Below are positions 6,013 to 33,186 of a stretch of 64,000 bases of DNA, in pieces. Location: the NCBI GenBank assembly GCA_024640845.1, contig JAHEEE010000006.1, positions 28,579 to 92,578 of the forward strand. Direction: 5' to 3'. The notes below the pieces were generated by a model, which was not told the DNA's origin, searched no databases, and saw only the letters and a list, made by a program, of their open reading frames with translations. How positions within the stretch are numbered: position 1 is the stretch's first letter; each line of letters begins with the position of its first letter. A program made the position numbers and the translations under genes. The stretch comes from Myxococcales bacterium. Its GTDB lineage: Bacteria > Myxococcota_A > Polyangia > Polyangiales > Houyiibacteriaceae.

Positions 6013-7038
6013 GTGTACCGAGCGCTGATTCGGCCGTTGTTGTATTTGCTGTCGGCGGAGACTGCGCATCACCTCGCGTTCGGGTGCCTTTGCATCGTGG
6101 CCGCCATTCCCGGGGTGAAGCCGCTGCTAAGAAGCATCTTTCACAGCCGAGATGCAAGGCGTGTCGACGCCCTGGGTCTGAGCTTTCCGAACGCGATTGG
6201 GCTGGCTGCGGGCTTCGACAAGGACGCGATCGGTTACGAGGCGCTTGGGTCCATCGGTTTTGGTTTCGTCGAGATAGGAACGCTTACGGGTCAGCCGCAG
6301 CCTGGGAACCCCACACCTCGTCTTTTCCGTTTGCCGAAAGACCGTGCGCTCGTGAATCGAATGGGCTTCAACAACCGCGGCTCAGCGGACGCGGTAGGAA
6401 GGCTCCGAGGGCCCCGTCGCACGATCGTCGGCGTGAACATCGGTAAGACCAAGGTCGTTTCCGAGGGCGACGCCATCAACGACTACGTCGTTAGCGCCAG
6501 GCGAGTCGGACCGCACGCGGACTACGTCGTCGTCAACGTGAGCTCTCCCAACACGCCCGGCCTTCGTGACCTCCAAGCGACCGAAAAGCTGCGCCCACTG
6601 CTTCAGGCGGTTCGTGAAGCGCTTAATGAAGTATCTCCGGCCCGACATGTCCCCCTGCTCGTGAAAATCGCACCAGATCTCGCTGATGACGACGTCGATG
6701 CGGTCGCCGACATGGCGCTCGATTTGGGCCTAGACGGGATCGTTGCCACGAACACCACGATTCGGCGAGATGGGTTGCAGAGCAGCGCCGAGGAAGTGGA
6801 ACGCTGCGGATCAGGGGGCCTGAGCGGACCGCCGCTGCACCACCGCGCACTCGAGGTCCTCAAGCGCCTGAAGGCGAAAACAGGCGACAGGCTGACGCTG
6901 ATCTCGGTAGGAGGCATCGAAACCCCCGAGCAGGCCCGCGAAAGAATCGAAGCGGGGGCCACGCTCCTACAGATCTATACGGCGTTGATCTACGAGGGCC
7001 CGTTTTTGCCGAAGCGCTTGGCCAAAGGCGTCGCGTAG
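6013..7038 (+). CDS. pyrD: dihydroorotate dehydrogenase (quinone)
   Basis: GTG start 6013; [62 protein letters not shown]. Confidence 0.93.
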
Positions 7039-7078
7039 GACCGTGTGCATCTCGACGCCCGGGCATCTTGCGCAAGCG

Positions 7079-24928: not shown

Positions 24929-24939
24929 GTTTAGTCACA

Positions 24940-25038
24940 CCCACCCACCCACCCCCACCACGTAATCCTCCCTCCGCGGCACTCGCTTCGCTCTGCCTTG
25001 GCGGCGCTTCGCGCCGGGCTTCGCCGTTCCGGCTCGCG
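24940..25038. repeat. hairpin-rich sub-block, first of two tandem-like copies 5' of the structured repeat
   Basis: CACCCACCCCCACCACGTAATCCTCCCTCCGCGG...GGCGGCGCTTCGCGCCGGGCTTCGCCGTTCCGGCTCGCG recurs at 25095-25192 and 32055-32152. Confidence 0.85.
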
Positions 25039-25075: not shown

Positions 25076-25483
25076 TGGGTTGGTTTAATAACATCCACCC
25101 GCCCACCCCCACCTCGTAATCCTCCCTCCGCGCGCTTCGCTTTGCTCGCGCTTGGCGGCGCATGCGCGCCGGGCTTCGCCGTTCCGGCTCGCGCTGCCGC
25201 GCATGTCTTGGGGCGAGGTCTCTTGCGTGCACACGCTGCCGCAGCCCTTTGGATGCGCAGAGTCGTTCATAAGGGGCTCGGAAAAACGCGATAGGGGTTG
25301 GAGCGGGCGTGCGAAGTGACAATCGGCAGGACAGCAACCACCCCCGATTGGCGCGCCGCACCGAGGGGCGGCGTGCGTGGCCTGACCTCCCCAGTTCTAC
25401 GGGCCACCTTTGCAGGCCGCCCCGTCCCGTGAAACCCCTATCGCGTTTTTCCGAGCCCCGTGTGCACCTAGCCGCCCGGGCGT
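25076..25483. repeat. dispersed structured repeat, copy 1 (27-bp inverted repeat 25273-25299 / 25433-25459)
   Basis: Near-gapless match to 32036-32443 (offset 6960); GGGGCTCGGAAAAACGCGATAGGGGTT and its perfect reverse complement separated by 133 nt. Confidence 0.92.
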
Positions 25484-25599
25484 GGTGTGCTGGCGTTTGC
25501 GTTTACCTAGGAGAATTGGTCGGGATGCGCGGCGCAGCGATGGGGCGGGAGGCCGGTCATCTACCGCTTTGTCGCGACGGCCGAGCGGGGCACCCCAGC

Positions 25600-32035: not shown

Positions 32036-32443
32036 CTGGTTTGGTTTGGTAACATCCCCCCACCCACCCCCACCGCGTAGTCCTCCCTCCGCGGCCGTCG
32101 CTTCGCTCGGCCTTGGCGGCGCTACGCGCCGGGCTTCGCCCTTCGGGCTCGCGCTGCCGCGCATGTGATGGGGCAGGGTCTCTTGCGAGCACATTCTGTG
32201 GCAGCCCTTTTGATGCAAAGAGTCGTTCATAAGGGGCTCGGAAAAACGCGATGGGGGTTGGAGCGGGCGTGCGAAGTGACAATCGGGACAACAGCAACCA
32301 GCGCCGATTGGCGCGCCGCACCGAGGCGAGGCTTGCGTGGCCTCACCCTCCCAGTTCTTCCGGCCACCTATGCAAGCCGAGCCGTCCCGTGAAACCCCCA
32401 TCGCGTTTTTCCGAGACCCGTGTGTACCTCGACGCCCGGGCGT
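32036..32443. repeat. dispersed structured repeat, copy 2 (inverted repeat 32233-32259 / 32393-32419)
   Basis: GGGGCTCGGAAAAACGCGATGGGGGTT / AACCCCCATCGCGTTTTTCCGAGACCC separated by 133 nt; collinear with copy 1. Confidence 0.92.
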
Positions 32444-32463
32444 CCTGCCTTCCAGGGTCCCCA

Positions 32464-33186
32464 GTGCCGGCGTCGGTGCCAGTGCTAGTGTCCGTGCCAG
32501 TGCAAGCACCGGAGATCATCTTCCGCGATTCTGACCTCCTGGTCGTCCACAAGCCCCCCGGCCTTCCGACGACCGCGCCGTCCGCGGAGGATGCGTGCCT
32601 GGTGCGTTGGATCGAGGAGCGGTTCCCTGCGCTCCACGCTCATCCCACCTCACGGCTCGACTCTCCGGTCAGCGGCCTCGTCACCTTCGCGCTCAACAAG
32701 GCGGCGAACGAGCGCCTGCTCGAGGCGCGCCGTTCTGGGACCTACGAGCGACTCTACTTGGGCATCACTTTGCATGATCTCGAAGCCCCCGAAGGCACGT
32801 GGTCCTGGCCGATCTCGATCGACCCCAACAACGCCAAGCTCCGCATTGCGGGGGCGGGCAAGGGTGAACGCGACGCCCGCACACGATACGAAGTCAGCGC
32901 GCGTACGCCATACGCGTCGTTGCTTCACCTGATGCCCGAGACAGGACGCACCCATCAACTTCGCGTCCATGCAGCCCAAGCTGGCGTGCCGCTTTTCGGC
33001 GATCGCGCGTACGGGGGCGAGCGGCGCCTTTCGCTTGGCGACGGGAGCGTCGTCAGCGCCCGCCGCGTGATGCTTCACTGTGCACGGGTGGGCTTTCGAT
33101 GGGGCTCGACCTCGAAGCGATTCGAGGCGCGCCCACCTCAGGACATGGAGCGCGTCTGGACCGCGCTCGGTGGGATCTTCGGCTGA
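32464..33186 (+). CDS. RluA-family RNA pseudouridine synthase
   Basis: DLLVVHKPPGLPTT, SRLDSPVSGLVTFALNK, PETGRTHQLRVHAAQAGVPLFGDRAYGG; start uncertain among in-frame GTGs 32464-32500. Confidence 0.88.
   Translation: MPASVPVLVSVPVQAPEIIFRDSDLLVVHKPPGLPTTAPSAEDACLVRWIEERFPALHAHPTSRLDSPVSGLVTFALNKAANERLLEARRSGTYERLYLGITLHDLEAPEGTWSWPISIDPNNAKLRIAGAGKGERDARTRYEVSARTPYASLLHLMPETGRTHQLRVHAAQAGVPLFGDRAYGGERRLSLGDGSVVSARRVMLHCARVGFRWGSTSKRFEARPPQDMERVWTALGGIFG

Follow-up and report, generated by a model that had tools for sequence, protein, structure and literature searches.

Small interspersed repeats of bacterial genomes are usually treated as debris of miniature inverted-repeat transposable elements (MITEs), with their hairpins seen as a by-product of the terminal inverted repeats. 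The element described here, a 187-nt core found twice in a 64,000-nt stretch of contig JAHEEE010000006.1 of a Myxococcales bacterium (hereafter, the window), works like a MITE of the BOX or ERIC kind, but with a conserved folded strand. We consider it fairly probable that it is a non-autonomous, MITE-like mobile element lacking a transposase, the conserved part of which is the folded ~187-nt + single strand. BOX, RUP, and SPRITE of Streptococcus pneumoniae are likewise short, dispersed, and modular intergenic repeats with predicted RNA structure, enriched between convergent genes and devoid of a transposase of their own (PMC3049150). They belong to unrelated organisms, however, and the core is distinguished by covariation across genera and a strand bias of G.U over A.C. 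For BOX and RUP, an insertion sequence (IS) partner in the same genome has been proposed (PMC3049150), whereas none was found for the core in its genus. ERIC (RU-1) and the Caulobacter CIR elements resemble the core as inverted-repeat intergenic elements of roughly 100–170 bp with conserved RNA folds, and orientation-dependent effects on mRNA have been reported for ERIC (PMC2229807). In contrast to these, the core has a single long closing stem and a three-way junction with two hairpins, exhibits much deeper compensatory variation, and was found inside an IS in one relative. The Correia or NEMIS elements of Neisseria are also MITEs with long terminal inverted repeats, and their transcript forms a stem which is cleaved by RNase III (PMC2229807, PMC10969869), a cleavage that is only predicted for the core. 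REP sequences with their RAYT transposases share the strand-specific folded single strand, the intergenic location, and a single-copy transposase acting in trans, but the RAYTs found here are associated with other repeats and co-occur with the core only incompletely. To our knowledge, the inner sequence of Correia is not known as a conserved multi-helix fold. Finally, the core of the relative G024 is an internal noncoding part of an ISAs1-family IS (NCBIfam NF033564), divergent from the transposase gene. A literature search on this family returned no title or abstract describing a structured RNA, and nothing was found on myxobacterial intergenic repeats, nor under the genus name. We know of no structured RNA for the ISAs1 family.

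The original prediction had reported two near-gapless copies of a structured repeat, and the window indeed contains an ungapped direct repeat of 300 nt (25165–25464 and 32125–32424) with 89% identity. A 27-bp inverted repeat closing a 133-nt loop and two nested hairpins were confirmed by reading the sequence, as was the compensatory change of A25293-T25439 to G32253-C32399 in copy 2, where one outer pair is broken (G32236/A32416). The + strand folds at −124.8 kcal/mol compared with −78.4 ± 4.3 for shuffles (z −10.7), and the minus strand folds less far beyond its shuffles (z −7.8). In the fold, a closing stem (P1) of ~27 bp opens into a three-way junction that bears two hairpins, with conserved letters close by. 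Across 62 aligned sequences, two-sided changes occur in 48 of the 59 pairs (567 such cells), and 98.0% of cells are paired as opposed to 37–49% after sliding the partners (37–43% for a slide of one column); shuffled controls collapse too (0/500). The covariation suggested earlier is overwhelming in the stem and both hairpins, the opposite of an alignment without it: two-sided changes affect all 26 modelled pairs of P1, five of the six modelled pairs of hairpin 1 (99.7% of cells paired), and 11 of the 15 pairs of hairpin 2 (99% paired). The alignment fitted to the covariance model R1 leans toward its own structure, but the same covariation emerges from a MAFFT alignment (A1) whose fold was predicted independently. 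The three-way-junction topology is retained in five genomes outside the genus (G021, G022, G024, G047, and G075; z −5 to −15) despite unrelated stem sequences, and the letters G.CGU, GUG.CA, CGAG, CUUGCG, GCAAG, and CGU, located in the stems of the hairpins and close to the junction, are common to all groups. Such consistent joint changes of paired letters mean that it must be the folded strand which is under evolutionary protection.

The two strands are not equivalent in this respect. Read as the + strand, the pairs include 206 G.U but only 12 A.C wobbles, and the paired fraction amounts to 98.0% compared with 90.9% for the minus strand. The excess of G.U over A.C is present in every group (142:3, 9:2, 5:0, 3:1, and 2:0), and 134 of 143 genus copies are more stable as the + strand. 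The ratio of 206 to 12 identifies the + single strand as the selected form. Palindrome homogenisation, either by template switching or by arm-to-arm gene conversion, would generate compensatory changes without selection for a fold, and some copies (L058) carry right-type flanks on both sides, as arm-to-arm recombination predicts. Such a process would nevertheless be expected to yield perfect Watson-Crick arms and no strand bias, and the observed covariation spans three separate helices and several families; we regard it as very improbable. Across genera, the stem sequences are fully replaced yet the inner helices and the choice of strand persist, and selection on a folded single strand thereby becomes measurable. 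Nothing in the window exceeds the gathering threshold of any Rfam 15 family. At a relaxed threshold, microRNA models matched at the element only through chance palindromes, and the scans showed no match to IS110 bridge RNA or OMEGA RNA, although adjacent recombinase and TnpB/IscB genes were not searched genome-wide. The family, which is absent from Rfam, comprises hundreds of natural variants on which its structure can be probed.

The selected strand is probably RNA. RNA and folded DNA look alike in sequence alone because G.T wobbles are tolerated in DNA hairpins as well, and the selected form might accordingly be a folded single-stranded DNA of the kind known from REP/RAYT (HUH transposase) or attC-type systems. 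This alternative gains from the orthologous RAYT-type gene in most high-copy genomes of the genus (a Y1_Tnp match over the cut-off in 11 of 13), a gene not found in the single-copy, 100%-complete genomes G016 and G018. Conversely, neither G009 nor G002 (80% complete), with 33 and 30 copies, yielded such a gene, nor did G047 and G075, and G008 has a RAYT yet zero copies of the core. No core lies near any RAYT gene, the RAYT genes have flanking inverted repeats of their own (e.g., GGGGACAGTCCCC), and insertions show no replication-strand bias by a crude third-position skew test (42 vs. 33). Overall, we hold folded DNA to be unlikely, and a RAYT as the mobiliser was rejected given the lack of adjacency, the separate repeats, and the incomplete co-occurrence. 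The RAYT genes, which are single-copy and vertically inherited at L212, L213, L214, L215, and L216, apparently constitute a separate REP/RAYT system, flanked by inverted arms of ~36–68 nt or by GGGGACAGTCCCC palindromes; the gene at L216 sits between an MglA-like GTPase gene and leuS. A further possibility is a retron-like origin, with a reverse transcriptase copying msr-msd repeats. The long a1/a2-like closing stem enclosing two hairpins in a myxobacterium is reminiscent of such repeats, and msDNA-like repeats have reportedly been found in Nannocystis. However, no reverse transcriptase gene (RVT_1) was detected in the window's genome, which refutes a retron for this genome as assembled (95.6% complete), nor in 17 of the 19 genus genomes, making this origin extremely improbable.

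The repeat is dispersed far beyond the window, in genomes of sediment myxobacteria that form a little-known group. In the window's genome (4.1 Mb in 145 contigs), R1, built from 46 non-redundant copies, finds 42 copies at E ≤ 1e-5, and many copies lie at contig ends. Eighteen of the 19 genus genomes carry between 1 and 42 copies each (40, 33, 33, 31, 30, 22, 18, 17, 15, 12, 12, 10, 5, and 4 in the others, and one in each of three), numbers which represent lower bounds, all genus genomes being apparently metagenome-assembled and mostly incomplete, with repeats collapsed at contig ends. G008 is the sole genus genome with zero copies. The genus thus holds hundreds of copies, the opposite of an isolated pair. 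Named records with the core include uncultured Myxococcales, Polyangiaceae, and Deltaproteobacteria assemblies, among them Myxococcales bacterium SG8_38. Outside the genus, R1 and a second model, R2, identified members in three genomes of the family (G021, G022, and G024), one of the order (G047), and one of the class (G075); up to 379 genomes of the phylum were sampled, and the remainder had none. Phage and plasmid collections gave no BLAST match, and seven pattern hits in viral contigs all failed the covariance model; a viral or plasmid origin was rejected on the absence of the core from these collections. A Phycisphaeraceae match (L199) was a chance pattern and not a family member by hidden Markov or covariance model, and a BLAST match in G033 was coding sequence with only a chance short palindrome by covariance model.

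Copies are strongly enriched between convergent genes, as called with a purpose-written codon-usage finder. Compared with 62 of 432 background gaps (14%), convergent gaps account for 55 of 82 copies (67%) in other species (Fisher p 1e-21) and 11 of 26 (42%) in the window species (p 9e-4), whereas divergent gaps are avoided. The right end of the element often lies 2–12 nt from a stop codon. Both observations, together with a TTTTT run after the inner stem on the + strand in the window species, would suit a 3′-end element retained by convergent genes as a terminator acting in both directions, an insulator, or a processing stem for RNase III. Other species have GC-rich pairs in place of the T-run, however, and an intrinsic terminator was rejected since the run is not conserved. 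Moreover, a symmetric terminator would not predict a + strand preference, only some tens of convergent gaps carry the core while orthologous gaps elsewhere are empty, and a similar enrichment of BOX, RUP, SPRITE, and IS elements has been read as a sign of parasitism (PMC3049150). A 3′-end role as the reason for retention is therefore considered decidedly unlikely.

Insertion sites also differ between species. Several convergent gaps span 460–820 bp with the element in one species but 14–120 bp in another, and at no fewer than five shared sites the element lies in opposite orientation in different species. A 40-bp convergent gap of the window (7038–7078) contains only a solo 25-nt copy of the motif that adjoins the right end of the core in the window species, whereas the orthologous gap of G001 (L070) has the full element; the window site may be either a pre-insertion target or an excision remnant. 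Paralogs are up to 0.95–0.99 identical and copies at shared sites are only as similar as the average for their two genomes, which indicates that the copies are undergoing turnover or concerted evolution and are not old and locus-bound. With its 187-bp core, ~400-bp unit (MITEs measure less than ~600 bp), 42 copies, and no transposase gene, the element resembles a MITE, as it does in the empty orthologous gaps and flipped orientations and in the arms of 26–27 bp that bound the conserved unit in most species, although the shared sequence reaches beyond the arms in the window species. Nevertheless, we do not class it as a proven MITE because the partner IS is missing in the genus and target duplications are unreadable.

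One relative provides a link to an IS. All three copies in G024 lie inside a ~1.98-kb repeat with an ISAs1-family transposase (NF033564, 102.7 bits), in the order of transposase, ~200 nt, the core directed away from the transposase gene, and inverted end CAGACCTGATYGG. These inverted ends occur nowhere else among 364 loci, and the core is internal to the IS. In G075, the core adjoins an ISAs1 transposase fragment in the same arrangement. Between two G024 IS copies, the core is 93.5% identical and the transposase gene 75%, core and noncoding region being better conserved, whereas in another pair core and gene are equally conserved. A tRNA gene (L335:1990–2061) directly follows the right end of one IS copy. 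The stronger conservation of the core, along with that of its inner motifs across genera, could speak for a host-beneficial multi-copy noncoding RNA family that acts in trans and was amplified for dosage. Sister species ranging from 0 to 42 copies, placement between convergent genes as in parasitic insertion, and the turnover of insertion sites argue against it, and we find it unlikely. Alternatively, the core might be a transposon-encoded guide or scaffold RNA needed by the ISAs1 transposition machinery, with the genus copies as RNA-only parasites that would spread by presenting the RNA or folded strand in trans to a host or IS enzyme. This would make them a bacterial analogue of short interspersed nuclear elements (SINEs) without reverse transcriptase, but seems quite doubtful to us. 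The repeat connects an IS family of the DDE type with what is probably a structured RNA, so that the use of such an RNA to a mobile element becomes directly testable.

For the non-autonomous, MITE-like element favoured here, the + strand would be transcribed from the left end as RNA, with the closing stem as a possible RNase III substrate. The fold may help the element to spread, either because it attracts a machine for transposition or recombination or because it spares the host through quiet insertion at 3′ ends. An IS-borne version would be the ancestor of the genus copies, which would lack its transposase and would now depend for movement on some enzyme acting in trans or on recombination. 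Several observations weigh against this reading. In G021, G022, G047, and G075, the minus strand folds about as well as the + strand or better, and a search for a promoter-like site found none. Derivatives cut back to the 3′ half of the core next to the right-flank motif have also spread, so dispersal does not strictly require the full fold. Empty sites are seen only in species too diverged for a target-site duplication to be read. Furthermore, the units of the genus lack the terminal repeats CAGACCTGATYGG, the majority of the ISAs1 loci inspected elsewhere are without the core, and the 19 genus genomes contain no ISAs1 transposase (of transposase families, ISAs1 and Y1_Tnp were searched). In view of these findings, the link to ISAs1 is real but may amount to cargo capture or transport. 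Of the original proposal of a structured noncoding RNA or a MITE/REP-like DNA element mobilised in trans, selection for folding of the single + strand and mobility were substantiated by the empty orthologous sites, flipped orientations, and wobble bias; the choice between RNA and DNA element is only partly settled, and the genus yielded no mobilising enzyme.

Features of the core and its flanking modules in the window (CM, covariance model)
Feature	Position	Strand	Basis or remark
Core element copy 1, 187 nt	25273..25459	+	CM R1 190 bits; ends are those of the conserved unit across the genus
Core element copy 2	32233..32419	+	CM R1 186 bits; 89% identical to copy 1
Closing stem P1, 5′ arm	25273..25299	+	perfect reverse complement of 25433–25459
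Closing stem P1, 3′ arm	25433..25459	+	perfect reverse complement of 25273–25299
Hairpin 1, CAATCGG...CCGATTG	25320..25350	+	covariation, helix 6
Hairpin 2, GGGGCGGCGTGCGTGGCC...GGCCACCTTTGCAGGCCGCCCC, 4-nt asymmetric bulge	25365..25423	+	covariation, helices 7 and 8
Left module type A, copy 1	25083..25192	+	direct repeat family D2; left-flank sharing profile
Left module type A, copy 2	32044..32153	+	D2
Additional coreless type A module, shortly upstream of copy 1	24929..25038	+	D2
Right-flank motif GTGTGCACCTCGACGCCCGGGCGTC, contains 14-bp palindrome	25460..25484	+	genome-wide count
Right-flank motif, copy 2	32420..32444	+	adjoins core copy 2
Solo right-flank motif in 40-bp convergent gap	7043..7067	+	ortholog comparison with G001 (L070)

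Conservation in most other species covers exactly the core from stem to stem (184–192 bp), and the surrounding sequence differs between species; in G021, the shared unit comprises the core and about 20 nt only. The remainder of the 0.4-kb unit is thus species-specific, the copies of the window species additionally sharing a left module of ~190 nt and a right-flank motif of 24 nt, which occurs 43 times in this genome (control, 0), the truncated derivatives included. Type A is a repeat of ~110 bp containing short hairpins with TTC or TTCG loops (GCGAAGC-type on the opposite strand). Upstream of copy 1, and likewise at many other copies, it is present twice. Another palindromic repeat, type B (GGAGAACGG...GCCCAATCGCTGTGCTGCCCATCCCGAGCCGTTCTCC), is present at L157:5450–5570 and in the left flanks of L036, L050, and L070, and sits in convergent gaps of the genus with or without the core. 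Hexamer-like CCAGTG/GTCAGC runs adjoin elements in several species, as seen in the window (~32458–32506) and in the flanks of L064, L103, and L116. Elements of G047 and G016 occur as inverted pairs with the right ends outward. At three G047 loci (L237:1142–1691, L244:1120–1693, and L338:1702–2332), a spacer separates two core copies in inverted orientation. The two cores within each of L237 and L244 belong to distinct subtypes, the spacers have the motifs CAAC...GTTGC and GCTTGCACGAGTGACGC in common, and no open reading frame was seen.
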